Shown here piece after piece: positions 13,517-40,828 of a stretch of DNA of 64,000 nucleotides. Location of the stretch: contig NZ_JACONZ010000002.1 in the NCBI RefSeq assembly GCF_014287275.1, positions 310,001 to 374,000 of the forward strand, given 5' to 3'. This DNA comes from Anaerofilum hominis. GTDB taxonomy: Bacteria > Bacillota > Clostridia > Oscillospirales > Ruminococcaceae. The position numbers and the translations under genes are program-made. Below the pieces are notes generated by a model, which ran no database searches, was not told the origin of the DNA, and was given only the letters and a program-made list of their open reading frames with translations. Numbering within the stretch: the stretch's first letter is position 1; every line of letters begins with the position of its first letter.

Positions 13517-16500
13517 ATGAAAAAGAAATTGCTCAGCCTTTTGGTGGCCTTGACAATGATCTTTTCCTGTCTGCCCTTTGCCGGGCTCAGTGCGGCCGCG
13601 GCAGAAGCCGACGGAAATCTGAAAAAGACCGTGCAGCTGGCGCAGCAGGTCGCAGAGGGCTTCAACGCCTGCACCACGGATGCGGAGCGCCGCCAGTATC
13701 TCGGCATCAGCAACAATAATATGTCCAACGACAGCTTCCGGGGGGTCTATGCACGCCTGACCGGCGATACCGCGCTGCAGCTGCGGGATGCGGAGGTGCT
13801 GTCAAACGAGCTGGTCCAGGCCGCCCTGCGCACCTCCAAGGCGCAGGCGTTCTATCTGCAGCCGTATTTTTTGCAGGATGAGCAGGGCAGGCGTACCTTT
13901 GTGGTCTACGCCTCTGTTACAGGCACCATCTCCCAAAGGAACTGGAACGCGTATCTGCTCTATGTGCCCGCGGGCGACGACGGCCTTTCCGGCTGCTGGT
14001 ACACCACCGGCGGCAAGGCGACGAGCATCGCTTATTTTAACGGCAAATCCTTTGCAGATGTGCGCGACGTCGAGGCGCACAACACCTCGGTCTGGACGCT
14101 GGTGGCGGACCGCAGTTCCGCGCGGGAACCAAAAGTTGCGGACCCCTATGAGGCCATCCGTTTTCTGGCCGGGCAGCTGGCTTCGCCGGGCAGCGTGGCG
14201 GAGGGCTATTTCAGCACCCGCGGCCAGGGGACATCTCTGGATGGGCGCGGCAAAAACTTTGCGCCGGACGTCAACGCCGCGCTGGCCGGTTCCGGCGTGA
14301 CGGATGAGGATTCCACCTATGCCTGGCGCATCTATAAATGTAAAGAGAGCACGGGGGAACAGGGCTATAATATTTTCTGGACCAATTCGGACCTGGACGC
14401 GGGCGGCAGGTTTCCCTGCCTGAAGTATAACACCGCCACCGGCGAATGGGTCGAGGGTACGGCCACGGCCCGTGAGAACACGGTGGAGGGCTTTACATTC
14501 CTCATCATCGACGGCGGTTCCTTTGTCCCCAATGAGAGCCAGCCTGAGGTCGAAAAATATACCCTTTCTTATGATGCGAACGGCGGCGACGGGGAAACGG
14601 TGCCCGCCGCAGTGCAGGCGGAAGAATACGAGATCGTGGCAGTGGATTTCAGCGTCGTCCCCGAGCGCGAGGGCTATCGCTTTCTCGGCTGGGATACGAT
14701 CCCTGATCCTGTCGGCCCGAAGTATAATCAGGACCCCCTGGGGGCCCGTGAACTGATCATGCCGGCGCACGATATGACCCTCTTTGCCATCTGGGCGCAG
14801 GAGCCGGCCCCGACGGTGACGCCGACCCCCACCCCGACGGTAGCGCCGACGGCAACGCCGACCCCGGTGCCCACCCCGACGGTAGCGCCGACGGCGACAC
14901 CGACCCCGGTACCCACCCCGACAGTCGCGCCGACAGCAACGCCGACGCCGACCCCCACCCCGACGGCCGCGCCGACAGCGACGCCGACCCCGGTGCCCAC
15001 TCCGACAGTCGCGCCAACGGCGACGCCGACCCCGGTGCCCACCCCGACAGTCGCGCCGACGGCGACGCCGACGCCGGTCCCGACCCCGACAGTCGCGCCG
15101 ACGGCAACGCCGGAGCCTGCAAAGTATCTGTTGTCCTATAACGCGAACGGCGGCAGCGGCAGCCAGCTTCCCGGCGCTGTCGAGGCAGAGGCGGGCGCTC
15201 CGATCCAGGTGGATCTCTCGGTCCAGCCCGTGCGTGCCGGGTATCTGTTCCTCGGCTGGGATGAGGACCCTGCTTCCAGCAGCGCGCGTTATCCCGCAGA
15301 GGGCGCGGCTTCTCTCGTGATGCCGGAACAGGACCTGACCCTTTATGCGGTGTGGAAGATCGACGAGACGCAGACCGCCTCCGCCGGTTATACCGTACAT
15401 TATTATATAGACGGCGCGCTGCAGCCGGATTGGACCGAGACTTATTCCAAAACCACCCTGGTCGCCGATGATCCGGCTCCCGCCTATGTGGTAAAGCAGG
15501 TCACAGATCATCTGGCCGGGCTTGGGGCGGATTATTACGCCGCTTCCCGTCCCGATCTGCCCGTCACCCTCAGCGGTGAGGACAACGTGCTGGAGGTCCA
15601 TTATGCGCACAAGCTGGTGGACATAGCGGGCACCGGCATCGAACTCTCCCACAATTACGTCTATACCCGGGTCATTGACGGACAGACGGATGTGAACAAC
15701 TTCTCAGCGGTTTCCGGGTTCTCTGGGGCCCAGCCGGGTTCGCTGCTGCGCCTGCAGGATCTGCAGCAGACCGTGGACCCCGAGGGCAATACCGGTTACC
15801 AGCCCACCGGGGCGGCGATCACCCGCACCCGGCTTCCGCTGATAGCGCCGGAAATGGAACATGAGGTCCAGGCCCCGGAGACCAGTGCCGGGCAGACAGC
15901 CGACGCGGCAGCGGCTTCCCTGGCGCAGGCCCAGATGGCGCGGGATGCCGCGCAGCAGGACAAAGCACTGGCGGACGAAGCGCTGATCGCCGCCCAGAAC
16001 AGCCTGGAGGCTGCCCGGACGGCTCTTGCAGAGGCCGAAGCCGCAGCGATCCCGGCGGCCCAGCAGCTGCAGGAGCTTGCCGCCCGCGAGGAACCGCTCG
16101 GTGAAGAGGAACTGGCGCTGCAGGCCCAGCTTCAGGGGATCGTGGAAGCCCCCGCTGCGGCGCAGACCGCGGTGACGCAGGCGGAAACGCTGGCAGCCCA
16201 GCGCGCCGAAGAAGCGCAGGCGGCTGCAAACGCGCTGATCGAAGCGGAAAACAGTCTGGCCCAGGCACAGGAGGCGGCGTCCGGCGCGCAGCAGGCGTTG
16301 GCGGCTGTGCAGGCCGCCGCGCTGAACGCGGCCGCGCAGACCCTGGCGGTGGGCGAGAGCGAGACCGTCGCGCTGGATGCGGACGGCGCTTTCCTCTATG
16401 AAGCGGGCTATACCTACCAGGTGCGTCTGGACTATGCCAAGACCTATGTCTACCAGACCCCGGCTGAGCCGGAACAGGAGATCGTCTCACCCGGGCCGAG

Positions 16501-16831
16501 CACCCCGGTGCAGCCCGCGCCGGGCCTCCCTGTCGTTTCGCCGGCAGAGCCCTCGGCGCCTCAGGCGGCCGCTCCGGCCGTCGCAGCGCCGCCGGCAGCC
16601 GGTACGGTCTCCATCTCTGACGACGACGTGCCCCTTGGGGCAACGGCCGGCCTGCGCGGCAAAAGCCGTGTACGCCGGGGCACCTATGTGATCCTGGACG
16701 ACAGCGCGCCTTTGGGCGCACTGCCCAAGACCAGTGGTTCTCTGGACGCCTCCTGGGGCGCGCTGGGCGCATTTCTGCTGGCTGCCGGCGCGGCGCTTGG
16801 TCTGAAAGGAAAGCGCAAGGAGCAGCAGTAA
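13517..16831 (+). CDS. Second LPxT-anchored surface protein
   Basis: 1104 residues. Signal peptide (1-30); an N-terminal domain of about 320 residues that I do not recognise; an InlB B-repeat/Flg_new-type domain (YDANGGDGE to LFAIW, about 350-430); a Pro/Thr linker of repeated [14 protein letters not shown] (about 431-534); a second Flg_new-type domain (about 536-616); a MucBP-like domain (about 622-700); an Ala-rich coiled coil (about 790-950); then [18 protein letters not shown] and the sorting signal LPKTSG at 1069-1074, a hydrophobic helix and KRKEQQ. The tail closely matches that of the giant adhesin, so both should use the same sortase. Probably a wall-anchored stalk protein; ligand unknown. 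The start follows AACGGGAGAA. Confidence 0.9.
14818..15117 (+). repeat. 42-bp tandem repeats encoding a Pro/Thr linker
   Basis: About seven copies of a 14-residue unit, [14 protein letters not shown], with small substitutions. It is an extended wall-spanning or glycosylatable spacer; slippage could change its length. Confidence 0.9.
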
Positions 16832-16966
16832 AGGGCTGCCGGCCCGCGTGGGCGGAAAACGGACGGCGGCACAGGGGGAAAGCGGCGCGGCAGTTTCCAG
16901 ATGCGCCCTTTCACAAAGAAAGCCGCTTTACGGCCGCGCTTTTTGCGGCCAGCAAACAAAAACGCA

Positions 16967-16995
16967 TTGAGAATTGCGGACAAAAAAGCTATAAT
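16967..16995 (+). promoter_or_regulatory. Strong sigma-70 promoter for the GGDEF-EAL gene
   Basis: TTGAGA, 17 bases, perfect TATAAT. Transcription from about 17002 gives a 150-nt leader. Confidence 0.75.
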
Positions 16996-17008
16996 AGACC
17001 TTAAGGAT

Positions 17009-17041
17009 GGCCGCGCGGCAGTAACAGCACTCCGCGCGGCC
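17009..17041 (+). promoter_or_regulatory. 5'-end hairpin in the leader of the GGDEF-EAL mRNA
   Basis: GGCCGCGCGG and CCGCGCGGCC, a perfect 10-bp stem with a 13-base loop a few bases after the predicted transcription start. More GC hairpins follow (for example GGGCGC AAA GCGCCC). I did not recognise a known riboswitch; mRNA stabilisation is plausible. Confidence 0.45.
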
Positions 17042-17149
17042 AAGCCGGTTATAGCCGGGCAGGGCGCAAAGCGCCCCGACGCCCCGGGACCGGCGTGTAG
17101 AGATAAAAAAGCCGGCGGCCCCAGAGCGCCGGTCAGGGAGGGACAGCAA

Positions 17150-18463
17150 ATGACCATCACACCGGAAAAAGAGATCACCCTGACGGCGCCCGACCGCGCC
17201 GCCTGTGCGGAGAAGCTCACGGGACTGCTGGCCGGGGGAGAGGCGAAAAACTCCGCCGTTTTCAAGCTGGCATTGGTGGACTTCAAAAATTTTAACGATA
17301 TTTTCGGCCGCCACTACGGTGATCTGCTGCTTGACCAGGTGAGCGCTTATCTCGCCGGGTTCGAGGGCGCGGAAGTGCTGCGCAGCGGCGGGGTGGAATT
17401 TGTACTGATCCTGCACGGCAGCGGCTATGCGCGGGCGGGCGAGGTCGGCGAGGAGATCTGCGACCGGTTCAACGAGACCTGGCGCATTGGAGATATGGAC
17501 TTTGTGTGCGCCATGTCGCTGGGCATCGTGCTGCCTCCCCTGGCGGCGGAAAAAGGCGAAATGCTGCTGGAGATGCTGGACAGCGCCGAACACGAGGCCT
17601 ATCTCAGCGGGCAAAACACCGCCGTCACCTACACCGAAGAGCTGCGCGAGAGCCTGCTGCGGACCAAAGCCATCGCTACCCGGCTGAAAAACGCCCTGGC
17701 CGTGCCGGACGACCCGGATCTGGAGGTCTGCTACCGCCCGACCGTGCTCTATGACGCGCACCGGTACACCCGGGCCGAGAGTTATGTGCGGCTTTTTTCC
17801 GACGCTTACGGGCTGGTCGGCGAGGCCACGCTGATCCCCATCGCTGAACAGAGCGGGCTGGCCTGCGCCTTGAATCTCTATGCGATCCGTCATACCTGCG
17901 CTCTGATCCGCAAACTGTTGGAAGAGGGCCGCTCGTTTGAGACCATCGCTGTGCCGATCTCCGCCGTGCAGTTCCTGCAGCCGGACTTTGACCGGGAGTT
18001 GGCAGGGCTGCTGGAAGAGTACGACATCCCCGCGGAAAAGCTGGCTCTCGAGATCACCGAAAGCACCCTGATCAACAGCTTTGTGCAGGTCAACTATATG
18101 ATGCAGCAGGTCGCCGAGATGGGCGTGGAACTGGTGCTCAGCGATTTTGGCACCGGTTACTCCGGCATCAATAATGTGCTTGACCTGCCGGTCAGCGTGC
18201 TCAAGCTGGACCGCCTCTTTGTGCTCCAGTTGGAAAATGATGAGCGCTGCGGCAGTGTGATCGAAGGCCTGATCTCAATCGCCCACAAGCTGGGCATGAA
18301 GATGATCGCCGAGGGCGTGGAGACCGACCATCAGCGCGAGCTGCTTGCCAGCTGGGGCTGCGATTATCAGCAGGGATTTTATTACAGCGCCACAGTGCAC
18401 GCGGACGAGCTGGTGGGGATGCTCTCGATGCCGCACCCGGAAGATCAGGTGGAAGAACTGTGA
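17150..18463 (+). CDS. Degenerate GGDEF-EAL protein (probable c-di-GMP effector, not enzyme)
   Basis: 437 residues, cytoplasmic; ATG 17150 follows GGGAGGGA. Residues 1-155 are GGDEF-like, with the signature loop reading SGGVEF. Residues 165-430 are EAL-like. Several catalytic positions look lost: the EAL motif reads RAESYVRL, the usual metal-binding Asn (vNvS) is Pro in VPISA, and the DDFG motif is SDFG. Conserved LEITES, LKLDR, AEGVET and QGFYYS remain. With an Asn and an Asp ligand missing it is unlikely to hydrolyse c-di-GMP; it may bind it or act through protein contacts. It lies between the adhesins and the spore-coat genes and could tie surface adhesion to c-di-GMP (inference). Confidence 0.85.
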   Translation: MTITPEKEITLTAPDRAACAEKLTGLLAGGEAKNSAVFKLALVDFKNFNDIFGRHYGDLLLDQVSAYLAGFEGAEVLRSGGVEFVLILHGSGYARAGEVGEEICDRFNETWRIGDMDFVCAMSLGIVLPPLAAEKGEMLLEMLDSAEHEAYLSGQNTAVTYTEELRESLLRTKAIATRLKNALAVPDDPDLEVCYRPTVLYDAHRYTRAESYVRLFSDAYGLVGEATLIPIAEQSGLACALNLYAIRHTCALIRKLLEEGRSFETIAVPISAVQFLQPDFDRELAGLLEEYDIPAEKLALEITESTLINSFVQVNYMMQQVAEMGVELVLSDFGTGYSGINNVLDLPVSVLKLDRLFVLQLENDERCGSVIEGLISIAHKLGMKMIAEGVETDHQRELLASWGCDYQQGFYYSATVHADELVGMLSMPHPEDQVEEL

Positions 18464-20685: not shown

Positions 20686-21534
20686 ATGCAGCAGCAGTAT
20701 TTGACGGGACGCCTGTTGAAACGCTATCAGGCATATCTCTGCGTGGAGGAAAAAAGCGAGGCCACGATACAAAAATATCTGCGGGATATCCGGGCCTTTT
20801 ATACCTATTTAAAAGGGGAGCCGATCACAGGGCGGGAGACCGTGATCGGCTATAAGCAATGGCTGGAAAACCGGGGTTATGCCGTGACCAGCATCAACTC
20901 CATGCTGGTGGCGGTAAACGGGCTGATGACCTTTTTGGGGCGGCCCGGCTGGCGCGTCCATCTGCTGCGGCAACAGCGGGACGCCTTTGGTCTTCGCGAC
21001 AGGGAGCTGACGCGGCAGGAATATCTGCGCCTGGTGCAGGCCGCTGCTGCCCGGGGGGACGAGCGGCTGGCGCTGCTTTTGCAGACGATCTGCGCCACCG
21101 GCATTCGCGTCAGCGAGCTGCGCTATATCACCGTGGCGTCGCTGCGGTCGGGGCAGGCACAGATCTCCTGCAAGGGCAAGGTGCGGCGCATCCTCATCCC
21201 CCAGACACTGTGCGTGCGTCTGCGGGATTATTGCCGCAGACGCGGGATCGGGGGCGGCAGCGTATTTGTCACCCGCAGCGGGGCCCCTATGGACCGCAGC
21301 AATATCTGGGCGCTGATGAAACGGCTCTGCCGCGCGGCGGGGGTGGCGGAGCACAAGGTCTTTCCGCACAATCTGCGCCATCTGTTCGCCCGCACTTTTT
21401 ATAAACAGTACAAGGATATCGTGCATCTGGCAGACGTGCTGGGCCACAGCAGCGTCAACACCACCCGCATTTATACCATGGTCAGCGCCGCAGAGCACCG
21501 GGGGCAGATCTCCCGCATGCATCTTTTGATCTGA
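20686..21534 (+). CDS. Tyrosine site-specific recombinase (likely invertase of the capsule promoter)
   Basis: 282 residues, start ATG 20686 after GGAGGGAGG. N-terminal SAM-like core-binding domain (about 1-95), C-terminal catalytic domain with the complete set: Arg141 (TGIRVSEL), Lys165 (CKGK), His228 and Arg231 (HNLRH), His254 (LGHSS) and nucleophile Tyr263 (RIYTM). Size and layout are those of XerC/D-like recombinases, not of a large phage integrase. It is immediately upstream of a pair of inverted palindromic sites flanking a promoter, and no phage or IS genes are nearby, so promoter inversion is its likely job (inference). Leftward transcription from the OFF-oriented promoter would be antisense to its 3' end if it passed the terminator between them. 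Confidence 0.92.
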   Translation: MQQQYLTGRLLKRYQAYLCVEEKSEATIQKYLRDIRAFYTYLKGEPITGRETVIGYKQWLENRGYAVTSINSMLVAVNGLMTFLGRPGWRVHLLRQQRDAFGLRDRELTRQEYLRLVQAAAARGDERLALLLQTICATGIRVSELRYITVASLRSGQAQISCKGKVRRILIPQTLCVRLRDYCRRRGIGGGSVFVTRSGAPMDRSNIWALMKRLCRAAGVAEHKVFPHNLRHLFARTFYKQYKDIVHLADVLGHSSVNTTRIYTMVSAAEHRGQISRMHLLI

Positions 21535-21669
21535 GATCATCGGGATGAGGTGTTTTTTCGGCCAGTGCCCCGGTTGTCCCGGAGGGACGAGGGGCAGGAT
21601 ATCAAGATAAACTGTTTTTTAGTAGCCATGCGGCCTGTCCCCAGGCCGCGGCAGATCGAAATACAAAAA

Positions 21670-21697
21670 CAGCCGTTCCGCCCAAGCGGAACAGCTG
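21670..21697 (-). terminator. Leftward terminator between recombinase and invertible promoter
   Basis: On the minus strand: CAGCTGTTCCGC, TTGG loop, GCGGAACGGCTG, then TTTTTGT. It lies about 75 bases downstream of the leftward promoter inside the invertible segment, so it would end transcription in the OFF orientation before it reaches the recombinase gene. Two more hairpins follow at about 21631-21650 and 21570-21600. Confidence 0.75.
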
Positions 21698-21713
21698 AAA
21701 ATCGAAAGTCTCG

Positions 21714-21745
21714 ATCTACTACATAATTTGCATTATGTAGTAGAT
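21714..21745. repeat. Left recombination site (IRL) of the invertible promoter
   Basis: A 32-bp palindrome: 14-base arms around a 4-base TTGC centre. Its inner 18 bp, ACATAATTTGCATTATGT (21721-21738), occur exactly in reverse complement at the right site. Two recombinase-binding arms around a short asymmetric spacer is the usual structure of a tyrosine-recombinase core site; the asymmetric centre sets its direction. Confidence 0.88.
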
Positions 21746-21997
21746 GACAAAAATCCACAAATTTTACATATCTATTGTATGATAACTCATTGTTTTTTGC
21801 GCGTCAAGACCGCAGGGACAAAGGCAGAGGATGATAGATAGTAATGGCTAAAATTGAAGTATGAAAAAGTTCTGATTCAGTAAAAAGGGACAAGAGCAAG
21901 AAATACAAAACTTTTTCATCGCTTGTATTTCCTGATGCTTTTTTTACTTTCGTGGAGTTTTCAAAACAGGAAAACAGGGGCAAAAATCACAGTCACC
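21739..21997. other. Invertible promoter segment (about 260 bp)
   Basis: AT-rich non-coding DNA between the two inverted sites, next to a complete tyrosine recombinase and directly before the capsule operon. It holds one strong promoter, currently leftward, and an internal 11-bp inverted repeat (ATGAAAAAGTT at 21861-21871 and AACTTTTTCAT at 21909-21919) that could bind a regulator. I see no strong rightward promoter in the given orientation. Confidence 0.8.
21779..21807 (-). promoter_or_regulatory. Capsule promoter in OFF orientation
   Basis: Leftward TTGACG (21807-21802), 17 bases, TATCAT (21784-21779): five of six matches at both boxes with ideal spacing. If the segment is inverted, the boxes fall at 21929-21934 and 21952-21957 on the + strand, giving a leader of about 88 nt to the wzz-like gene at 22052. 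Confidence 0.8.
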
Positions 21998-22022
21998 ACA
22001 TAATGCAAATTATGTGGTGACT
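21991..22022. repeat. Right recombination site (IRR) of the invertible promoter
   Basis: A 32-bp palindrome, 14-base arms around GCAA. Core ACATAATGCAAATTATGT (21998-22015) is the exact reverse complement of the left core; the outer arm bases differ between the two sites. It is followed outside the segment by ATTTTTTATG, so as RNA it is also a hairpin followed by a U-run and might reduce read-through from the left. Confidence 0.88.
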
Positions 22023-22051
22023 ATTTTTTATGTCAACGGAGGAATCGTGTT

Positions 22052-22744
22052 TTGGAACAGGAATATGAAACGATAGACCTGCGGGAGATTTTTTCCCTGC
22101 TGAGAAAAAATCTTCTGCCGGTCTTTCTGGCGGCCGTGGCGCTGGCTGTCGCGGGGTTTCTGGTCACCGCCCTGCTGATCACTCCCAAGTACGAGGCAAG
22201 CGCCACCCTGATCGTCAATTCCCGCGAGGAGCAGCAGGCGCAGACCGCTGTCACCAACGATCAGATCAACTCGGCAAAGCAGCTGGTCAGCACCTATGCG
22301 GTGATCCTCAAAAGCGACACCGTCTTGGACAGGACCATTCAGGACCTGGGGCTGAAGATGAACTATGAGACCCTGGCCAAAAAAGTATCCATCGAGGCGG
22401 TCGACTCCACCCAGATCATGAAGATCACCGTGCGGGACCCTGACCCGGAGCTGGCAAAGAACATCGTGAACAGCATTGTGGAACAGGCGCCCGAGATCAT
22501 CATCTCCACGGTAAAGGCGGGCAGTGTGGAGGTCATCTCTTATCCCAAGGCCGGCGAAAAGCCGGTCTCGCCCAGCAAGATGAAAAACACCCTGCTGGCG
22601 GGCCTTGCCGGCGGCGTGCTGGCTGTGGGGATCGTCTTTCTGCGCAGCCTGCTCAACAATACCTTTATGACCGACGACGACATCACAAAACATCTGGGGC
22701 TCACGGTGCTGGGCGTGATCCCGGATATTGAGATCAAAGAGTAG
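22052..22744 (+). CDS. Capsule chain-length regulator / kinase adaptor (Wzz, CpsC/CapA type)
   Basis: 230 residues; TTG start 9 bases after CGGAGG. Wzz-type layout: cytoplasmic N-terminus, TM1 (about 24-44), an extracellular domain, TM2 (about 183-202) and a short cytoplasmic tail. In Gram-positives this protein activates the separate tyrosine kinase and sets polymer length. First gene of the exopolysaccharide operon, directly behind the invertible promoter; the kinase gene follows after 15 bases. Confidence 0.9.
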   Translation: MEQEYETIDLREIFSLLRKNLLPVFLAAVALAVAGFLVTALLITPKYEASATLIVNSREEQQAQTAVTNDQINSAKQLVSTYAVILKSDTVLDRTIQDLGLKMNYETLAKKVSIEAVDSTQIMKITVRDPDPELAKNIVNSIVEQAPEIIISTVKAGSVEVISYPKAGEKPVSPSKMKNTLLAGLAGGVLAVGIVFLRSLLNNTFMTDDDITKHLGLTVLGVIPDIEIKE

Positions 22745-22759: not shown

Positions 22760-23488
22760 ATGAAAAAAGATCAGAAAAAGAAAAAGAAGTCGGGGCGCAG
22801 CTTTCTGCTGGTGGGCAAGGAGGCTCCCTTTCAATACCAGGAGGCTTTTAAAAGCCTGCGCACCAACCTGAAATTCGTGGCGCTGGACAAGGCCTGCAAA
22901 AAGATCATCATCACCAGCGCCATCCCGGGCGAGGGCAAAAGCAGCGTCGCCATCAATCTGGCGGTGTCGCTGGCGCAGGCGGGCAGCAAGGTGCTTCTGA
23001 TCGACTGCGACCTGCGCAAGCCCATCATCCACAAATACATGAAGATCAGCCGCACCGCCTGCAAGGGCATCACCAACGTGCTGTCCGGCAGTTCCATGAC
23101 CGAGTCGGTCGTCAACATGCAAAGCCTGGGCCTGCACGTGATGATCGCCGACGCCATTCCGCCCAACCCCGCCGAGCTGCTGGGCAGCGCGAGGATGAAA
23201 GCGGTTATAGACGAAATGGGCCGGCACTACGACTATATCATCTTCGACACCCCGCCGGTGTCGGTGGTCACCGACGCCGCGGTCTTGAGCCAGTATACCG
23301 ACGGCGTCATCCTGGTAATCCGGCAGAACCTTTCCACCTTTGACCAGGTCGCGCTGGCAAAGAAAAATCTGGACGCGGTCGGGGCGAATATCCTCGGCGC
23401 CGTGCTCAATGATTTTGACGCCAAAAGCGCGGATAAGGAGAGCGGCTATTATTACAGCTATAACTATGACTATTCCAGCAACGACTAG
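22760..23488 (+). CDS. Capsule tyrosine kinase (BY-kinase, CpsD/CapB type)
   Basis: 242 residues. Walker A at 53-62 (SAIPGEGKSS), Walker A' IDCDLRKP at 81-88, Walker B IIFDTPP, and a C-terminal tyrosine cluster (YYYSYNYDYSSND) that is the autophosphorylation tail of this family. Works with the preceding adaptor and is reset by the phosphatase that follows; controls polymer assembly. Confidence 0.94.
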   Translation: MKKDQKKKKKSGRSFLLVGKEAPFQYQEAFKSLRTNLKFVALDKACKKIIITSAIPGEGKSSVAINLAVSLAQAGSKVLLIDCDLRKPIIHKYMKISRTACKGITNVLSGSSMTESVVNMQSLGLHVMIADAIPPNPAELLGSARMKAVIDEMGRHYDYIIFDTPPVSVVTDAAVLSQYTDGVILVIRQNLSTFDQVALAKKNLDAVGANILGAVLNDFDAKSADKESGYYYSYNYDYSSND

Positions 23489-23500
23489 GAGCGTGGCCCC

Positions 23501-24256
23501 ATGACGGATCTTCACTGCCACATTCTGCCCGGGCTCGACGACGGAGCCAAAGACCTGGACGTGTCGGGGGAACTGCTGCGCCGCCAGTGTGCGGCAGGCG
23601 TGCAGCGGGTCGCCTTTACCCCTCATTTTCATTTTGAACGTCAGGATGTGGACCAGTTCTGCCGGCGGCGTGACGCTGCTGCGGCAGAACTGGTCCAGTG
23701 CTATCCGGAGCTGGCGTCACAGCTTGAGCTGAAAAAGGGGGCCGAGGTGTTTTTTTCACCCGCCTTGCTGGAGAGCGACCCGCAGCCGCTCTGCCTGGAG
23801 GGGACCGGCCTGATGCTGGTGGAGCTGCCGGTGACCTATCGGCCACAGTGGACGGTGGAGGTGCTGTATCAGCTGGGGACGCTGGGGATCACCCCGCTCA
23901 TCGCCCATGTGGAGCGGTACCCCTATGTGATGGAGGACCCCAACCTGCTGATAGACTGGATCGAGGCCGGGGCCTATACGCATGTGAACGCCTCCAGCCT
24001 GGTGCTGCACAAGCGGCGCAGGGCGCAGATCTTGAAGATGATCCGGCACGGTCTGGTGCATCTTGTCTGCACCGACGCACATTCGCCGGACAAGAGGCCG
24101 CCCCTGCTGGGACAGGCCATGGAGCTGGTGCGCCGCCGGTGCGGCGGGCAAAAAGCCCAGGAGATGGAAGCGCTCAGCCTGGGACTTTGGCGCGGGGAAC
24201 AGCCGGAGCCGCCGGCCGCCGCGCCCATGCGGCGGCTGCTGGGGCGGCTGGTTTAA
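23501..24256 (+). CDS. Tyrosine-protein phosphatase (CpsB/YwqE, PHP fold)
   Basis: 251 residues. PHP metal motifs: DLHCHILPGLDDG at the N-terminus, AFTPHFH, EVFFSP, PLIAHVERYPY and CTDAHS. Mn-dependent family that dephosphorylates the CpsD-type kinase. Start ATG 12 bases after the kinase stop. The last 30 residues are Pro/Arg-rich and poorly conserved. Confidence 0.92.
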   Translation: MTDLHCHILPGLDDGAKDLDVSGELLRRQCAAGVQRVAFTPHFHFERQDVDQFCRRRDAAAAELVQCYPELASQLELKKGAEVFFSPALLESDPQPLCLEGTGLMLVELPVTYRPQWTVEVLYQLGTLGITPLIAHVERYPYVMEDPNLLIDWIEAGAYTHVNASSLVLHKRRRAQILKMIRHGLVHLVCTDAHSPDKRPPLLGQAMELVRRRCGGQKAQEMEALSLGLWRGEQPEPPAAAPMRRLLGRLV

Positions 24257-24280: not shown

Positions 24281-25321
24281 ATGGAGAAGAAAAAGAAGGG
24301 GCGCAAAGGCCTGATCGCGCTGGCGGTGGCACTGGCGCTGATCCTGCTGCTGGGCCTGTGCGCCTGGATCTATTACGAGGGCAAGTTGGGGCTGATCCGA
24401 TATGACGACGGCAGCCGGGAACTCGACATCAGCGCCAGCGTGCCGGCGGACGATCTGGACCTGCCCGATATGGGCGAAGCGCCGCAGGACGCGGAGGAGC
24501 GCGGCAAACTGCCGCAGGGGGAAGCGGCCTTTGACAGCGACGTGGTAAATATCCTGCTGCTGGGCACCGACGAGCGCAGTGAGGAATTCAGCGACAACGC
24601 CCGTGCGGACAGCATCCTGCTGCTCAGCCTGAATACCCGGCTGCACACCATCAAGCTGGTGAGCATCGAGCGGGGCATCGGCGTGCCGGTGCCCGGGCGC
24701 AATGATGACTGGATCACCCACACTTTCCGCTATGGGGGCGCGGCATTGACGCTGCAGACGGTGCGCGATTGCTTTAAGGTGGATGTGGACCGGTATGTGC
24801 GGGTAAATTTCAGCGCTTTTGAAAAGGCGATCGATGTGGTCGGCGGGGTGGATATTGTGCTGACCCCGGCGGAGGCGGCGTACATCAACAAAGAAAAAGA
24901 CCACGGCGGAGACAGCGGCGTGCAGTCGGTGAGGGCGGGCAGCGCGCATTTGAATGGAAAGACCGCCCTGATCTATGCCCGCGCCCGGGAGATCGACAGC
25001 GACTGGCAGCGGATCGAGCGGCAGCGGAATGTGATCCAGGCGACTGTGAATGAGGTGAAAGGGGAGGACGTTTTCACCCTCAACCGGCTGGCGGACGAGA
25101 TCCTGCCCATGGTGCAGACCAACCTGACCAAAGGGGAGATCACCTCCCTGCTTTTGGAGGCGCCGGGATTTATCAGCCAGGGGGCGCAGATAGAACAGAT
25201 GACGATCCCCACCTATGAGACCTGCTGGAACAGCGTGGGCGTGGACGGCAGAAAGCTGATCGGCGTGGACTTTGCGGCAAATGCAGAGATCCTGCAGCGG
25301 TTTTTCTACGAGGGGGAATAG
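24281..25321 (+). CDS. LytR-CpsA-Psr (LCP) family protein
   Basis: 346 residues. One N-terminal membrane segment (about 10-31), then the extracellular LCP domain beginning NILLLGTDER, with ADSILLLSLN, the region LVSIERGIGVPVPG (the usual RDT is replaced by ERG), INFSAF-like VNFSAF, VGGVDI, LNGKTALIYARAR and an R-x-x-RQRNVI helix. LCP enzymes transfer undecaprenyl-linked polymers to peptidoglycan, so this is the likely attachment step for the capsule. The altered RDT motif deserves notice, but the other Arg residues are kept. Confidence 0.9.
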   Translation: MEKKKKGRKGLIALAVALALILLLGLCAWIYYEGKLGLIRYDDGSRELDISASVPADDLDLPDMGEAPQDAEERGKLPQGEAAFDSDVVNILLLGTDERSEEFSDNARADSILLLSLNTRLHTIKLVSIERGIGVPVPGRNDDWITHTFRYGGAALTLQTVRDCFKVDVDRYVRVNFSAFEKAIDVVGGVDIVLTPAEAAYINKEKDHGGDSGVQSVRAGSAHLNGKTALIYARAREIDSDWQRIERQRNVIQATVNEVKGEDVFTLNRLADEILPMVQTNLTKGEITSLLLEAPGFISQGAQIEQMTIPTYETCWNSVGVDGRKLIGVDFAANAEILQRFFYEGE

Positions 25322-25501
25322 AGCGGGCAAAGCCCCGCGGGAAAGCGCCGGACGGATGCTTTGGAGCATGCGGACAAAAAGAGGAAAAGCGGATGCGGCT
25401 TGCACAAGCGCTTTGCTTGGTCAAAGCCCTGCCGTATGGGATGTGAAACGCACGCGCGCCGCGATTCGACGCGCGCGGCAGAACAAAGGAAAGGGAACAG
25501 C

Positions 25502-26917
25502 ATGAGCGCAAAAATGCGGAGCGCCTCGCAGGACAGGACGATCACCAACACCGCCAATGTGATCATGACGCTGGTCGCAATGGCGAGCACCTGCGCCGTC
25601 TGGTTTGGCTATTACAACGATTTTGTCTTTCGCACCTATCGCATGGCGGGCGGTGTGGTCTCGATGGCGATCTATCTGGCGGTTTATCTTCTGTTCGCCA
25701 GAGTGTACCGGGCTTTCAAGATCGCCTCGTTCCCCATCATGGAGACGGGTTTTTCACAGTGCCTTGCGCTGGGGATCGCGGATGTATTCATCTATGTAGA
25801 GGGCTGCCTTATTTATCGCCAGTATATCAACATTTTGCCCGGAGCCGTTACGGCAGCGGTCCAATTTGTCCTGGCTTTCGTTTGGGCTACGCTTGTAAAA
25901 CAATACTTTTTAAAGCATGTGCAGCCGCAGGAATGCGTCATGGTCTACCATACGGCGAAGTACAGCCGCGGCGCGGCGGAACTGTTCGTCAAAAAGATCG
26001 AGGCCAAATATGGGCATCTGTTCCGCATCGATAAAAGCCTGCCGGCGGAGGCGCTGAAAGAGCTGGACGCCGCGCTGCGTCCGTATCCGGTCCTGTTCCT
26101 GTTCGGCGTCGAGGGCACCCAGCGGAGCCGCATTTTCAATTATGCGTCCAGTACGGGGAAAAAGCTGTACATGGTGCCCACGATCGAAGATGTGCTCGCG
26201 CGCGGGTTTCAGGTAAAGCATTTGATCGACACCCCGCTTTTTGCATACGAGAGCCACGGCGACAGACCCGCGTCCTATCCTGGCAAACGGCTGATCGATA
26301 TCGTTTTGAGCCTGCTGATGCTTTTGGTCACCTTTCCCATCATGCTGGTCACTGCCCTGTGCATCAAGCTGGAAGATCACGGGGACGTTTTCTTTAGACA
26401 AAAGCGTTATACGGCCGGCGGCAAGGTGTTTGAGATCCTGAAATTCCGCAGTATGGTGATGGACGCCGAGACAGACGGAAAACCGCGCCCCTGCACGGCG
26501 GGGGACAGCAGGGTCACAAAAGTGGGGAAGATCATCCGCGCGACCAGGATCGACGAGCTGCCTCAGATCTTCAATATATTGTCGGGCGATATGAGCTGGG
26601 TCGGGCCAAGGCCTGAAAGGATAGAGCATGTGGATCTGTTTGCCAGGGACCTGCCTGAATTCAACTACCGGCTGCGGGTGAGGGCCGGGCTGACGGGCTA
26701 CGCGCAGATCTACGGAAAATATAACACCACGGCGCGCGACAAGCTGCTTTTGGACCTGCTGTATATAGAGCAGCAGAGTTTCGTGCTGGATGTAAAAATA
26801 TTTTTTATGACGATCAAAACCATGTTCACGCCGGAAGCGGCCGAGGGCTTTGATGAGGCGAGGGCGAAAGCGATCAACGCAAGGGCGGCCGAGGAAAAAG
26901 AAATCGTAAACGCATGA
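25502..26917 (+). CDS. Priming sugar-phosphate transferase (polyprenyl-phosphate, WcaJ/EpsE type)
   Basis: 471 residues with start ATG 25502 after AAAGGAAAGGG. Four N-terminal membrane segments, a middle domain, then a membrane helix and the bacterial sugar transferase domain: KRLIDIVLS, FFRQKRYTAGGKVFEILKFRSM, DELPQIFNILSGDMSWVGPRPER. Transfers the first sugar phosphate to undecaprenyl phosphate to start the repeat unit. It follows a 180-base gap after the LCP gene without a clear terminator. Confidence 0.9.
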   Translation: MSAKMRSASQDRTITNTANVIMTLVAMASTCAVWFGYYNDFVFRTYRMAGGVVSMAIYLAVYLLFARVYRAFKIASFPIMETGFSQCLALGIADVFIYVEGCLIYRQYINILPGAVTAAVQFVLAFVWATLVKQYFLKHVQPQECVMVYHTAKYSRGAAELFVKKIEAKYGHLFRIDKSLPAEALKELDAALRPYPVLFLFGVEGTQRSRIFNYASSTGKKLYMVPTIEDVLARGFQVKHLIDTPLFAYESHGDRPASYPGKRLIDIVLSLLMLLVTFPIMLVTALCIKLEDHGDVFFRQKRYTAGGKVFEILKFRSMVMDAETDGKPRPCTAGDSRVTKVGKIIRATRIDELPQIFNILSGDMSWVGPRPERIEHVDLFARDLPEFNYRLRVRAGLTGYAQIYGKYNTTARDKLLLDLLYIEQQSFVLDVKIFFMTIKTMFTPEAAEGFDEARAKAINARAAEEKEIVNA

Positions 26918-26926
26918 GGGCAAGGT

Positions 26927-28156
26927 ATGAGAATCCTGGTGATATGTCAGCACTATTGGCCCGAGCCATATCCGCTTGCGGATATTTGTGAGGAACTGGC
27001 GCAGCGCGGTCATTTTGTGCATCTGGTGACGGATGTTCCCAACTATCCGATGGGGGAGATCTATCCCGGGTACCGAAAGGGCCGCAGGCGGGAAGAAGAG
27101 CACAACGGCGTAAAGATCACAAGGACCTTTACGATCGCCAGACGCCGCAGCGCGCTGTTCCGCCTGCTGAATTATTACAGCTATGCGATCTCCTCCTCGC
27201 TTTATGCAGGGAGCCTGAAACAAGACTACGACGTGGTCTTTGCCAACCAGACCTCGCCCGTCATGATGAGTTCCGCGGCCTTTGCCTATGCCCGCAAACA
27301 CCAGAAAAAGGTGGTGCTGTACTGCATGGACCTGTGGCCGGCCTGTCTGGCGGCGGGCGGGATCTCGGAACATTCCCCTGTTTACAGGTTCTTCGACTGG
27401 GAATCCAAAAGGCTGTACAGAAAGCCGGACAGCATCCTGATCACCTCCCGGATGTTTCGCGGATATCTGGTGCAGCGGCATGGCGTCGAAGACGCCAGGA
27501 TCACCTATCTGCCCCAATATGCGGCGGCGCAGTTTGAGACGGAGCAGGAGCCTCCGCTTCCAAAGGACACCGTGGATCTGATGTTCGCCGGCAATATCGG
27601 CGCTGCGCAAAGCCTTGCGACGGTGATCCGGGCGGCGGAGATCTTAAAAGAGCAGCCACAGCTGCGCTGGCATATCGTGGGCGACGGTTCGGAGCTGGAA
27701 AACCTGAAAAGGCTGGCGGCGGAGAAAGGCCTGACAAGCGTTTTGTTCCATGGCCGCCGCCCGCCGGAGGAAATGCCTCAGTACTATGCCATGGCCGACG
27801 CAATGCTGGTGACCCTGACGGCGGACCCCGCGATCTCGCTGACGCTTCCCGGCAAAATGCAGACGTATATGGCGGCCGCAAAGCCGATCATCGGCGCGGC
27901 GGACGGCGAGATCCCAAAGGTCATCGAGGCGGCGGGATGCGGTTTTTGCGCCGGGGCGGAGGATGCGCCGGGGCTGGCAAACGCGGTCCAACGCTATTTG
28001 GAGTGCAAAAATAAGCGGCAGCTTGGGCAGAACGCCCGCAGCTATTATGAGACCCATTTCACGCGGCGGCATTTTATGGACACGCTGGAAAAGACGCTGA
28101 AACGGTATGCGGCTGCGGAGAACGCAGTGGAGGAAAAAGCAAATGTCGGCATTTGA
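26927..28156 (+). CDS. Glycosyltransferase family 4
   Basis: 409 residues, GT-B fold. N-terminal MRILVICQHYWPEPYP with WbuB/WcaI-like features, C-terminal nucleotide-sugar domain with FAGNIGAAQSL, HIVGDG and LPGKMQTYMAAAKPI. Adds an early sugar of the repeat unit; donor unknown. It begins 9 bases after the sugar-transferase gene and overlaps the next gene by 14 bases. Confidence 0.88.
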   Translation: MRILVICQHYWPEPYPLADICEELAQRGHFVHLVTDVPNYPMGEIYPGYRKGRRREEEHNGVKITRTFTIARRRSALFRLLNYYSYAISSSLYAGSLKQDYDVVFANQTSPVMMSSAAFAYARKHQKKVVLYCMDLWPACLAAGGISEHSPVYRFFDWESKRLYRKPDSILITSRMFRGYLVQRHGVEDARITYLPQYAAAQFETEQEPPLPKDTVDLMFAGNIGAAQSLATVIRAAEILKEQPQLRWHIVGDGSELENLKRLAAEKGLTSVLFHGRRPPEEMPQYYAMADAMLVTLTADPAISLTLPGKMQTYMAAAKPIIGAADGEIPKVIEAAGCGFCAGAEDAPGLANAVQRYLECKNKRQLGQNARSYYETHFTRRHFMDTLEKTLKRYAAAENAVEEKANVGI

Positions 28157-29192
28157 TGATAAGACGCTTCTGATCACCGGCGGCACCGGTTCTTTTGGAC
28201 ACACGGTCCTCAAACACTTTTTGACCGGCGATATCGCGGAGATCCGCATCTTCTCCCGCGACGAGAAAAAGCAGGACGATATGCGCCATGAACTGCAGGC
28301 GCAGTACCCGCAATACGCTTCCAGGGTCAAATTCTACATAGGCGACGTCCGCGACCTGCAGAGCCTGCGCGACGCCACGTGGGGGGCGGATTACGTGTTT
28401 CATGCGGCGGCGCTCAAAGAGGTGCCGAGCTGCGAGTTCTTCCCCATGGAGGCGGTGCGCTCCAACATTATCGGCACCGATAATGTGATCCGCGCGGCTG
28501 TCGAGAGCCGCGTAAAAAATGTGGTGTGCCTGTCCACCGATAAGGCGGCTTACCCGATCAACGCTATGGGGATCTCCAAAGCGATGATGGAGCATGTCGT
28601 ATATGCCAGCGCCAGAGCCGCTGCCGAGCACGGCACCACCCTGTGCTGTACACGGTACGGCAACGTGATGTGCAGCCGTGGCAGCGTGATACCGCTGTTT
28701 ATCGACCAGATCAGGGCGGGCGTGCCCATTACCGTAACCGACCCGGAAATGACCCGCTTTTTGATGAACCTGGATGAAGCCGTAGAACTGGTGCTGTTTG
28801 CGTTTCAACATGCAAACCCGGGCGATCTGTTTATTCAAAAAGCCGACGCCTCCACCATTGGCGATCTGGCCAGGGCGGTACAGCAGCTTTTTGGCGATAC
28901 GGGCATCCGCAGGATCGGCACCCGCCACGGTGAAAAACTGTATGAGACCCTCATGACCCGTGAAGAGCGCCTGCGCAGCGAGGATATGGGCCGGTACTAC
29001 CGCGTCGCCGCCGACAGCCGCGATTTGAATTATGACAAGTTTGTTGTCAGCGGGCAGGTGCGCACGATGGCCGACGAGGCCTACACCAGCCATAACACCC
29101 ACCGCCTGGACACAGCGGCGACAGTGGAGAAGATCATGACGGCGGAATATGTGCAGGAGAGGCTGAAAGAAAAGGAAAAAACAAGCGATTAG
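28143..29192 (+). CDS. UDP-GlcNAc 4,6-dehydratase family protein (CapE/FnlA-like)
   Basis: 349 residues; ATG inside the end of the previous gene, after GGAGGAAAAA. Extended SDR: TGGTGSFG at the NAD site, DVRD, HAAALKEVP, STDKAAYPINAMGISK. In place of the Tyr of YxxxK there is Met, as in the 4,6-dehydratase group, with TDKA nearby. Expected to make a 4-keto-6-deoxy UDP sugar. The partner enzymes that finish UDP-FucNAc in other loci (CapF/CapG) are not in this window. Confidence 0.87.
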   Translation: MSAFDDKTLLITGGTGSFGHTVLKHFLTGDIAEIRIFSRDEKKQDDMRHELQAQYPQYASRVKFYIGDVRDLQSLRDATWGADYVFHAAALKEVPSCEFFPMEAVRSNIIGTDNVIRAAVESRVKNVVCLSTDKAAYPINAMGISKAMMEHVVYASARAAAEHGTTLCCTRYGNVMCSRGSVIPLFIDQIRAGVPITVTDPEMTRFLMNLDEAVELVLFAFQHANPGDLFIQKADASTIGDLARAVQQLFGDTGIRRIGTRHGEKLYETLMTREERLRSEDMGRYYRVAADSRDLNYDKFVVSGQVRTMADEAYTSHNTHRLDTAATVEKIMTAEYVQERLKEKEKTSD

Positions 29193-29210
29193 AGAAAGCG
29201 GAGGGAATAG

Positions 29211-30368
29211 ATGTCTGAAAAGAAAATGACCGTTAAGAAAAGACCCTACCAGATCTGCACCAACTGCGTTATGGACACATCGGATTCAAAGATCGTTTTT
29301 GATGAAAACGGGCGATGCGACTTCTGCGGAGATTTTTATGAAAATATCCGACCCAATTGGAAAACGGGGGCCGCTGGGGAAAAAGCATTAGAGGAGATCT
29401 CCGCCAAAATCAAAAAAAGCGGTAAGGGAAAAAAATACGACTGCATTATTGGCATGAGCGGCGGGGTGGACAGCTCTTATCTGTGCTACGTCGCAAAAGA
29501 GCTGATGGGGCTCCGGCCGCTGATCTATTGCGTCGACACCGGCTGGAACCTTGATATAGCGGTTCAGAATATCGAGCGGATCATAAAAGCGCTGGAGCTG
29601 GATCTGTACACCGAGGTCATCAACTGGGAGGAAATGCGCGATCTGCAGCTGGCATTTTTCAGGTCCCAGGTCCCCTATCAGGACCTTCCGCAGGACCACG
29701 CCATTTTTGCAGGCCTGTACAATTATGCCGTCAAAAACGGCATCAAGTATGTGCTCACCGGCGCCAACAACGCGACCGAGTGCATCCGTCCGCCGATCGA
29801 GTGGGTGTATCAAAACGACATCACTCTTATTAAGGATATCCATCGAAAATTCGGGAAAACGCCTCTTGCGACCTTTCCCATGTGCGGGCTGCTGAAGTCA
29901 CGTTTGTATTACCGCTATCTGCGCGGCATGAAACGGGTCGCTCCGCTGAATATGATCGACTATGACAAACAAAAGGCGCAGGCGTTTTTGTACGAGCGCT
30001 TTGGCTGGGAGCGCTATGAGAACAAGCACTATGAAAATGTCTTCACGCGGTTTTATGAGGGCTATTACCTGCCGCACAAATTTGGTTATGACAAGCGCCG
30101 CTGCTATTTTTCAAATGAGATCCTCACAGGGACGATGATGCGGGAACAGGCGCTTGAAGCTTTGAAAGACCTGCCCTATGACGAGGGGCAGATGCAGAAA
30201 GACAAGGAGTATATCGCTCAAAAACTCGGTGTCTCGCTCAAAGAATTTGATGAGATCATTGCGGGCGAGAATAAGACCTTTGCCGATTACAAAAATTCAT
30301 GGTGGCTGATTCAGCTGGGGACCATCGCACTTCGGGCGATCGGGGCGGAAAACAAGAAATATCGCTGA
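29211..30368 (+). CDS. N-acetyl sugar amidotransferase (WbpG/PseA-like)
   Basis: 385 residues. Zn-type Cys cluster near the N-terminus (CTNCVMDTSD and CDFCGDF), then a PP-loop ATP site (GMSGGVDSSY) of the adenine-nucleotide alpha-hydrolase fold, LTGANNATEC and FPMCG. Relatives turn an N-acetyl group into an acetamidino group, using ammonia from a HisH/HisF-like pair. No such pair is encoded here, so the ammonia source would have to be elsewhere. Confidence 0.87.
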   Translation: MSEKKMTVKKRPYQICTNCVMDTSDSKIVFDENGRCDFCGDFYENIRPNWKTGAAGEKALEEISAKIKKSGKGKKYDCIIGMSGGVDSSYLCYVAKELMGLRPLIYCVDTGWNLDIAVQNIERIIKALELDLYTEVINWEEMRDLQLAFFRSQVPYQDLPQDHAIFAGLYNYAVKNGIKYVLTGANNATECIRPPIEWVYQNDITLIKDIHRKFGKTPLATFPMCGLLKSRLYYRYLRGMKRVAPLNMIDYDKQKAQAFLYERFGWERYENKHYENVFTRFYEGYYLPHKFGYDKRRCYFSNEILTGTMMREQALEALKDLPYDEGQMQKDKEYIAQKLGVSLKEFDEIIAGENKTFADYKNSWWLIQLGTIALRAIGAENKKYR

Positions 30369-30612
30369 CAAAGCCGATGACACAAGGATACCGTTGTTTT
30401 GAATGAGGGAGATCTATCAAACAGGGAAAAAACAGCGGTAGTCACCTGCGGCGGCACAAGCGGGAGAGTTAAGCGGATATGAAAAAGGACTGTGGCCGTA
30501 CCGCGGCTGCGAGTGCTTTTGGCCCGCTGCGGGCAGGAAGCGCCATTTTGCGTGTCCCGCAGGCGGAAAAAGAATCGTCAGAGGCGGAAATTTATATAGA
30601 GGTATATACGAC

Positions 30613-31788
30613 TTGAAAATCCTGTTGATTGATGTGAATTACAAATTTAGCAGTACTGGAAAAATTGTTTACAATTTATATAAATCGATAAATGAGAGTG
30701 GTGACATTGCAGGGGTTTGTTATGGCCGCGGCCCCAAGAGCGATGACGTCAATGTGTTTCGGTTTTCGCCGCCTTGGGAAGTTTATCTTCACGCAGCTCT
30801 GACTCGTCTTACTGGATTCACAGGATGTTTTTCGGTGATAGGCACTTACAAACTGATCCAATACATAGAAAAATTTCAGCCGGACGTTGTCCATATCCAT
30901 GAACTTCATGCGTATTTTGTCAATATAAAACAGCTTGTCCAGTATTTAAAAAGAAAACAGATTAAAACGATATGGACCTTTCACTGCGACTTTATGTTTA
31001 CAGGAAAATGTGGAAAGAGTGCTGAATGTGAACGGTGGAAAACGGGATGCGGGCACTGTCCAAGGCTGAAAGCCTATGTCTCGACTGCCTGCTTTGACTT
31101 TACAAGTATGATGTGGAAACAAAAGCAAAAACTGATGCAGCAGTGGCCGGAATTGACGATCGTTACGCCGTCGGAATGGCTTGCAGATAGGGTGAGGCAA
31201 TCATTTTGCGGTGGAAATGAAGTGCGGGTCATTCACAACGGAGTGGATGATACGATTTATTATCCGCGGGATATAACAGAACTTCGTGAAAAGCTTAGCC
31301 TGCAAGACAAAAAAGTGATTCTTTCTGTCGCTCCAGATATCATGTCCGACATGAAAGGCGGGAGATGGATACTGCAGCTTTCAGAGAGGATGCAAAAGCA
31401 ACCCTATGTATTTGTATTGATAGGTTTAAATCCCGGCGAGGCAAAACACATTTCCCATGGGGATAATGTCATCCTCTTAGAGAAAACTTCAAGCCAAAAT
31501 GAGCTTGCCGAGTATTATTCGTTGGCGGATGTTTTTGTCATTTGCAGTAAAGCAGAAAATTTTCCGACAACCTGTTTGGAGGCATTGGCATGTGGAACAC
31601 CTGTTTGTGGGTTTGATGTGGGCGGAACAAAAGAAACGTGGCCAGAACATGAAATGAATTTTGTGGAATATGGAAACTTGGAAATGCTTCAAGCGCTAAT
31701 AAATATAAATATGCGTATGGATGTAAATAATCAAGATTATACCATCGCACAAATGACTGAAAATTATTATGAGTTATATAAAAAATAA
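30613..31788 (+). CDS. Glycosyltransferase family 4, AT-rich gene
   Basis: 391 residues; TTG start after AGAGG. GT-B fold: MKILLIDVNYKFSSTGKIVYNLY, VHIHELHAYF, a Cys-containing loop (GKCGKSAECERWKTGCGHCP) also seen in WcaC-like transferases, VIHNGVD, and C-terminal AENFPTTCLEALACGTPVCGFDVGG, the family 4 donor-binding region. Base composition drops sharply from the previous gene, marking the start of the AT-rich part of the locus. Confidence 0.87.
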   Translation: MKILLIDVNYKFSSTGKIVYNLYKSINESGDIAGVCYGRGPKSDDVNVFRFSPPWEVYLHAALTRLTGFTGCFSVIGTYKLIQYIEKFQPDVVHIHELHAYFVNIKQLVQYLKRKQIKTIWTFHCDFMFTGKCGKSAECERWKTGCGHCPRLKAYVSTACFDFTSMMWKQKQKLMQQWPELTIVTPSEWLADRVRQSFCGGNEVRVIHNGVDDTIYYPRDITELREKLSLQDKKVILSVAPDIMSDMKGGRWILQLSERMQKQPYVFVLIGLNPGEAKHISHGDNVILLEKTSSQNELAEYYSLADVFVICSKAENFPTTCLEALACGTPVCGFDVGGTKETWPEHEMNFVEYGNLEMLQALININMRMDVNNQDYTIAQMTENYYELYKK

Positions 31789-31820
31789 TATCTGGCGTAA
31801 AAAACGGTGGAGCGAGTTTA

Positions 31821-32978: not shown

Positions 32979-33106
32979 ATCGATTATGTAGTTAATGAAA
33001 TATCATAGTTACAAGATGTGAGACAGGCTGTAGCAATAATGAGAGAAATTCTACGGGTTTAGTGGGCCCCAGACAGCACTATTGCTGATTTATGAGGACG
33101 AGCTAG

Positions 33107-34522: not shown

Positions 34523-34542
34523 GTGATGAAGAGGAATATGCA

Positions 34543-35628: not shown

Positions 35629-35637
35629 GGAGGTTAT

Positions 35638-36723: not shown

Positions 36724-36747
36724 GCTTATTTTGGAAGGACTCAAAAG

Positions 36748-38817: not shown

Positions 38818-38818
38818 G

Positions 38819-39736: not shown

Positions 39737-39749
39737 GGGAGGACATCGT

Positions 39750-40826: not shown

Positions 40827-40828
40827 AA

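Follow-up and report, generated by a model that had tools for sequence, protein, structure and literature searches.

Two palindromes lie between a tyrosine recombinase gene and a capsule operon in the window (the whole 64-kb stretch of DNA that was analysed), and the question raised by this locus is whether they bound a segment whose inversion switches the operon on and off. A sequence-only reading had proposed an invertible promoter with its own adjacent tyrosine recombinase ahead of a capsule operon, and our comparison of related loci supports this proposal. We consider it very probable that the locus is a reversible on/off promoter switch for the capsule operon, inverted by the adjacent Xer-type recombinase. 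This assignment draws on sequence and comparison, namely on the site architecture, the matched and asymmetric centres, the promoter direction, the occurrence of both orientations, the lack of tree signal in orientation and the terminator-like sequence. The recombinase, the two sites and the segment between them are as follows.

20686-21534, plus strand: Xer-type tyrosine recombinase P0001, 282 aa; a GTG at 20641 may be an earlier start
21714-21745, plus strand: putative recombination site 1, a 32-bp palindrome with 14-bp perfect arms round TTGC; core 21721-21738, with the four central bases (N4) TTGC at 21728-21731
21746-21990: inner part of the putative invertible segment, 245 bp, between site 1 and site 2
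21991-22022, plus strand: putative recombination site 2, a 32-bp palindrome with 14-bp perfect arms round GCAA, also a 14-bp hairpin; core 21998-22015, with N4 GCAA at 22005-22008

The two 32-bp palindromes with an inverted, shared 18-bp core had already been described from the sequence, and we confirmed that the arms are perfect and that the cores, ACATAAT-TTGC-ATTATGT and ACATAAT-GCAA-ATTATGT, are exact reverse complements. When the 64-kb window was scanned with the site pattern at up to two mismatches, sites 1 and 2 were the sole matches, while shuffled windows gave a mean of 0.09 matches and reached two matches in 2 of 100 shuffles. The flanked stretch is non-coding, as had been stated, and measures 245 bp rather than the approximately 260 bp given before. 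The window thus has the layout by which an inverton is recognised, with inverted repeats flanking an intergenic segment that adjoins the regulated gene, and strand exchange would be expected within both centres, at about 21728-22008. Each site had been read as two arms round an asymmetric 4-bp centre; the asymmetry of N4 holds, and the analogy with dif sites suggests that the exchanged centre is better read as the hexamer T-N4-A than as the bare 4 bp. Rfam and tRNA scans of the window gave no match.

We found that P0001 carries the Pfam domains Phage_integrase (1.4e-24) and Phage_int_SAM_1, and that it matches the structure chains of XerA (4a8e, E 3.6e-22) and XerD (1a0p, E 5.1e-17). The residues R141, K163 or K165, H228, R231, H254 and Y263, which we take to be catalytic, are invariant across 23 aligned relatives and fall within the aligned XerA/XerD motifs, so that the upstream tyrosine recombinase with all catalytic residues, noted earlier and ending at 21534, was borne out. 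No serine recombinase domain of the Hin or Mpi type was identified in P0001, for which Pfam gives Phage_integrase and SAM-like domains only. P0001 scored under the curated NCBIfam cut-offs for XerA (133 versus 220 bits), XerD (121 versus 330) and XerC (105 versus 335), and likewise under those of the Fim-type invertases PRK09871 (25 versus 222) and PRK09870 (23 versus 221). Sequences 99, 86 and 67% identical to P0001 exist in the protein database, and the nearest related locus compared at the DNA level (L129) carries a recombinase 62% identical. No recombinase more than 57% identical was found in 250 genomes of one family, and in 394 genomes of one order the best FeoB match was 79% (G317). The search of viral_contigs for close P0001 homologues returned one distant match only (29%), and the exact window core had no match in viral_contigs.

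Downstream of site 2 lies the capsule operon, whose position just after the sites had been noted correctly: the TTG start of its first gene at 22052 is 29 bp past site 2.

22052-22744, plus strand: Wzz/CspC-type chain-length protein, first capsule gene; TTG start, Pfam Wzz 1.8e-18
22760-23488, plus strand: CpsD-type tyrosine autokinase; TIGR01007 192.8 bits, cut-off 108
23501-24256, plus strand: CpsB/CapC-type phosphatase; Pfam CpsB_CapC 9.7e-44
24281-25321, plus strand: LytR-CpsA-Psr glycopolymer transferase; Pfam LytR_cpsA_psr 1.6e-33
25361-26917, plus strand: initiating sugar transferase; Pfam Bac_transf 1.8e-62, TIGR03025 302 bits, cut-off 295.6; the true start may be internal
26927-43053, plus strand: remaining apparent capsule cluster, same-strand ORFs with functions judged by eye from translations

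The first of these proteins scored 154 bits for TIGR01006, under the curated cut-off of 296. The remaining cluster apparently encodes glycosyltransferases, flippase- and polymerase-like membrane proteins, sugar-nucleotide enzymes, an acyltransferase and an aminotransferase. Upstream of the capsule region, the window also holds a sortase ORF (1113-1841, minus strand), a 2791-residue ORF (4390-12765, plus strand) and a repeat-rich surface-type protein with an LPKTS-like motif and a C-terminal hydrophobic stretch (13517-16831, plus strand). A GGDEF-EAL protein is encoded at 16901-18463 (plus strand), 2.2 kb ahead of the recombinase, and c-di-GMP turnover beside a surface switch may be of interest.

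The sequence-only reading had not recognised the site pair and its recombinase as known ones. A profile from the 23 aligned relatives was scanned over genome contigs, from which the best 80 of 580 loci were taken, and further loci came from genome searches, for example from 107 of the 394 genomes of one order at E <=1e-70. Among 145 loci with the recombinase, 112 were distinct and had room, and 15 were left out for want of room. A site pair, defined by at most four arm mismatches and by matching centres, was identified within 1.2 kb 3′ of the recombinase gene in 101 of the 112 loci, while the same definition identified none in the control regions (0/90 upstream and 0/62 far downstream). Eleven loci were without a pair so defined, among them L062, which has a pair with a 5-base centre. 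On this comparison the site pair and recombinase of the window belong to a large family found mainly among Clostridia. Outside this class, a Collinsella tanakaei contig (L077) carries a relative of the module together with its site pair. The segment spacing in the family ranges from 169 to 534, with a median of 260.

We then looked at the centres with a centre-free pattern, ACATAAT-NNNN-ATTATGT, in 42 genomes, 40 of which were known to carry the recombinase. It identified 94 sites in 25 of the 42 genomes, compared with 3 for the reversed control pattern, and the 94 sites formed 38 clusters of two or three plus 11 lone sites. At least one pair with reverse-complementary centres was present in 37 of the 38 clusters, while two random loci agree in their centres in 1.8% of cases. 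The exception, G010, differs by one base; its pair on contig C54 (5153-5423) has the centres CCAC and CCGC and offers a natural test of the matched-centre rule. Self-complementary centres were absent from the 101 pairs (5.5 expected, P 0.0035). Centres that are matched yet asymmetric are as a strand-exchange region demands, with identity between the partners and an asymmetry that fixes the direction. The centres are also polar (P 7e-6): their innermost base is C in 50 sites, and their outermost base is G in 14. Position 7 of the site is T in 94 of the 101 and position 12 is A in 90, giving two conserved inner half-sites round a 6-bp centre. Up to 14 exact sites were found per genome, as close inverted pairs, unlike the single site per chromosome, at the terminus, of chromosome dimer resolution. 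Several genomes hold several family copies with identical arms, and several have 3 to 6 pairs with mostly different centres. Selection for private centres as an active force was considered and rejected: in 51 comparisons of loci within one genome the centre was common to both in 3, no less often than the 1.8% seen between loci.

The transcription signals around the window segment are as follows.

21807 to 21779, minus strand: sigma-70-like promoter TTGACG-17-TATCAT, 10 of 12 consensus matches, pointing to the recombinase
21670-21697, minus strand: intrinsic-terminator-like hairpin between site 1 and the recombinase, 12-pair stem with 8 G-C, then TTTTTGTATT
22023-22031, plus strand: T-rich tract ATTTTTTAT, 7 T of 9, directly after the site-2 hairpin; a terminator-like site

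The strong sigma-70 promoter described earlier between the sites is present; as a minus-strand element, it is directed away from the capsule genes. Known solely as a consensus match on one strand, it scored 12.7 bits; the plus strand gave 6.3 at best, and shuffles gave 8.4. Since the best sigma-70 match faces the recombinase, the window appears to show the capsule-OFF orientation. On the minus strand at 22036-22009 we also observed a second candidate promoter, TTGACA-16-CATAAT (11/12), with its -35 box outside site 2 and its -10 box formed by the site arm, which would fire into the segment in either orientation.

We scored promoters in 100 of the 101 segments and called a promoter clear where one strand exceeded 9 bits and led the other by 3 bits or more. 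The score exceeded that of the segment's own shuffle mean in 93 of the 100; one clearly stronger promoter was called in 75, of which 58 face the recombinase and 17 the operon, and 25 were without a clear single promoter. The median distance from the -10 element to the exit centre was 44 bp for recombinase-facing and 54 bp for operon-facing promoters, indicating that the promoter geometry is alike in both directions. Twenty-five segment pairs, overlapping in membership and hence not independent, could be aligned over at least 100 bp; with the better strand taken as the call and no threshold applied, 9 were inverted with opposite promoter calls, 15 were direct with equal calls and 1 was discordant. 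All 9 inverted pairs were collinear on the recombinase side over about 670 to 708 bp, and the operon side was conserved in one of them, L058/L098, which are paralogous polysaccharide loci of one genome. The cleanest inverted case is that of two viral contigs, L158 and L162, in which both flanks are collinear and segment positions 1-238 align to 238-1 at 70.5%. Homologous inverted segments in related loci have the two sites as their boundaries. For the capsule type of the window, both orientations are represented by the window and L129 only. L129, on a Subdoligranulum plasmid record, is the nearest capsule relative, with a Wzz 65% identical and the same TTGC centre, and its stronger promoter faces the capsule operon, an ON-like orientation opposite to that of the window. 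The sequence-only reading would have been refuted by relatives with one orientation only and no palindromes; we found site pairs and both orientations. L129 also carries a second copy of the distal site about 55 bp later (5299-5371), and the interval holds a terminator-like hairpin and a T run; doubled sites were found in further loci, and more than two switch states may therefore be possible.

We next mapped these characters on a quick tree of the 101 recombinases, in which 39 of 98 inner branches are weakly supported. Arm type changed 7 times, compared with 13.3 in shuffles (0/300 as low), and each centre position was clustered as well (0 to 3 of 300 shuffles as low), while promoter orientation changed 16 times, compared with 15.5 in shuffles (235/300 as low). 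Arms and centres are therefore, on this tree, inherited with the recombinase and orientation is not, as expected of a reversible switch. These data also bear on the possibility that another recombinase, host XerC/XerD or the recombinase of a paralogous switch, inverts the segment by acting on the same arms. The arms do match dif half-sites, and the several family copies with identical arms in one genome would provide such an enzyme; however, 101 of the 112 loci have the pair next to a recombinase of their own, and arm types are distributed in keeping with the recombinase tree, and we consider inversion by another enzyme quite unlikely.

Hairpin signals at the sites were compared across the family as well. 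A T-rich tract was found outward of site 1 in 37 of 101 loci; outward of site 2 there were 6 such tracts in 101, and the inner sides of the sites had 9 in 202. The outward tract at site 1 held on average 4.26 T and 1.81 A in 9 positions, indicating that it is not mere A+T richness, and the outward OFF transcript may end at site 1 in the family. The window differs: a separate terminator-like hairpin stands in the interval from the recombinase to site 1, and a T tract adjoins the outer side of site 2. The hairpin at 21670-21697 folds in the predicted RNA of 21660-21752 (minus strand), and it would stop OFF-direction transcripts short of an antisense run into the recombinase gene. The site-2 RNA hairpin as sequenced is predicted to be a perfect 14-bp stem of -21.3 kcal/mol (z -7.2), and together with its T tract it is a possible terminator or attenuator ahead of the capsule operon. 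After computed inversion its energy is -11.6 kcal/mol: inversion swaps half-stems between the sites, and the stem is perfect only in the sequenced orientation.

Such signals would also be seen if the palindromes were fixed terminators or attenuators of convergent genes that never recombine, and the hairpin with T tract at site 2 and the gene-ward T-rich tract after site 1 in 37 of 101 loci fit that view. Fixed hairpins would not predict the 18-bp identity between the sites, the reverse-complementary centres of 37 of 38 clusters or the inverted segment between conserved flanks in L158/L162, which makes this explanation very improbable.

We asked whether the exchange of half-stems is common to the family. 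Of 75 loci, 41 have the stronger site-2 hairpin in the OFF arrangement and 23 in the ON arrangement (P 0.018, or 0.027 without the window). Taken singly, neither class of orientation shows a significant bias (P 0.12 and 0.097), and as a rule for the family the exchange of half-stems is weakly suggested. The pairing difference of the window is the largest, and its energy difference the fourth largest, in the family. It is a tentative proposal, more doubtful than the switch itself, that the flip does two jobs, turning the promoter to the capsule genes and breaking the 14-bp terminator hairpin between promoter and operon, so that the capsule would be doubly locked in the OFF state, and that the shared arms, with a matched overlap private to each locus, form in Clostridia a natural set of lox-like sites whose different spacers make them distinguishable in one cell.

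The same palindromes raise the possibility that the switch of the window worked in the past and has since become fixed, or almost fixed, in OFF. Outside the core, site 1 and site 2 each self-pair at 7 of 7 positions as sequenced and at 3 of 7 after computed inversion, the largest drop among the 101 loci, as though these private 7-bp extensions fitted the present orientation only; the unlikeness of the two sites outside the core could be a sign that the segment flips only rarely. Site 1 lies 179 bp past the recombinase end (21534), and in the family comparison the gene-to-site gap of the window is 190 bp against a median of 22. A locked switch is nonetheless unlikely, given that the catalytic residues are intact, that cores and centres match exactly and that L129, with the same centre, stands in the opposite orientation.

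For the reversible switch we propose the following mechanism, in which catalysis by P0001, the tetramer, the exchange point, transcription and the capsule phenotype are what we infer from these comparisons. A single Xer-derived recombinase would bind the two dif-like inverted sites as a homotetramer, with strand exchange taking place within the hexamer T-N4-A at the centre of each. Because the arms are palindromic, the alignment of the sites would be fixed by the asymmetric N4 alone, whose bases agree between the two sites on reading inwards, and the product would be an inversion. The spacer of loxP likewise decides site alignment. Inversion would turn the single strong promoter from the recombinase (OFF, as in the window) to the capsule operon (ON), and in the OFF state the outward transcript would end at the terminator that separates site 1 from the recombinase gene.

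The genes downstream of the family's switches are varied. We scanned 93 of 98 first downstream ORFs with Pfam, the long ones cut to 520 aa, and found 7 LRR_5, 4 collagen repeats, 4 DUF4379, 4 helicase-associated repeats, 3 SPFH/Band 7, 3 SLH, 3 Wzz and 2 Polysacc_synt_2; polysaccharide-type cargo accounts for 5 of the 93, the window included. In L005, L006, L034 and L068 the switch precedes helicases with helicase-associated repeats, and L005 and L006 gave weak PADLOC matches to restriction-type models (best 2.7e-16), so this cargo is possibly a phase-variable defence gene. In L158 (951-3776) and L162, from IMG/VR, the switch lies, as judged by eye, between an endonuclease/exonuclease-reverse transcriptase-like fusion ORF and ParB-like ORFs. 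Between L149 and L150, the 4.2 kb leading to site 1 are shared at 88% and the segment is inverted, and no homology was found past site 2 in the available sequence. Similarly, L147 and L148 match through the segment and are unlike beyond it until the match resumes, 4.6 and 8.1 kb downstream. Judging by these two pairs, in which recombinase and segment are shared and the genes past site 2 are unrelated, the switch apparently occupies places of exchange for the genes under its control.

The 4.2 kb of shared DNA that holds the module in L149 and L150 contains an integrase-like ORF. Together with the Xer-like protein and the dif-like sites, this would suit a system for mobile-element integration or chromosome-dimer resolution rather than a switch. 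We regard that explanation as extremely improbable in view of the close inverted pairs round a promoter, several per genome, and of a protein well under the curated XerC, XerD and XerA cut-offs.

If the switch operates as proposed, it would explain a capsule made in only part of a gut Clostridia population. It would also provide a sequence rule, an ACATAAT-N4-ATTATGT pair with a matched asymmetric centre, one internal promoter and an adjacent recombinase, by which switches and their present state could be read from a genome. The rule predicts that pairs with mismatched centres are locked, that recombination could occur between loci of one genome whose centres are equal, and that a changed centre common to both sites still flips. 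Genomes with 3 to 6 pairs would then hold orthogonal recombination sites, if their recombinases act on each other's arms.

Phase-variable capsule promoters, with an invertible promoter ahead of a capsule operon, are known from the gut bacteria Bacteroides and Akkermansia. These are of different phyla from the window, and the likeness is one of description. Invertible promoters were reportedly surveyed by Jiang and others in 2019. Our literature search, with most subscription papers outside its scope, found no description of the ACATAAT-N4-ATTATGT site motif. The closest candidate comes from the hCom2 gut community, where the available text reports inverton group 139 with invertase group 35, comprising 33 invertons, 32 of them in Clostridia, nearly all with a nearby tyrosine-type recombinase and with reads that show orientation changing over passages (PMC11892184). 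Two examples in that text start 231 and 241 bp apart, compared with 169 to 534 (median 260) in the window family; the Clostridia, the adjacent tyrosine recombinase and the spacing are consistent with the window family but not specific to it, and the portion available makes no mention of matched centres, dif-like arms or capsule (PMC11892184). Group 139, likened by taxa, recombinase and spacing, is probably the window family.

The fold family and catalytic motifs of P0001 are shared with the Xer/dif systems (XerC/XerD-dif, XerH-difH and XerS-difSL), and dif sites have the half-sites CATAA and TTATG round a 6-bp centre, as do the window sites; the tabulated dif of Dechloromonas aromatica has 17 of the 18 bases of the window core (PMC2731167). 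The window family differs from Xer/dif in having two inverted sites rather than one per chromosome, palindromic arms and several pairs per genome, and in what would be promoter inversion instead of dimer resolution. The XerC of Ureaplasma parvum is described as an Xer-type recombinase that binds short inverted repeats and inverts DNA, giving surface variation at the surface-antigen locus mba (PMC3599477); it is likened here by description. In Clostridioides difficile, the surface gene cwpV follows a 195-bp segment between 21-bp inverted repeats, and inversion of this segment is proposed to create or abolish an intrinsic terminator within the 5′ leader (PMC2784873). The cwpV promoter lies outside the segment, whereas that of the window lies inside, and the likeness is again one of description; cwpV (PMC2784873) is a precedent for a terminator made or broken by inversion, as proposed at site 2 of the window. 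The switch mechanism is of a kind already known.
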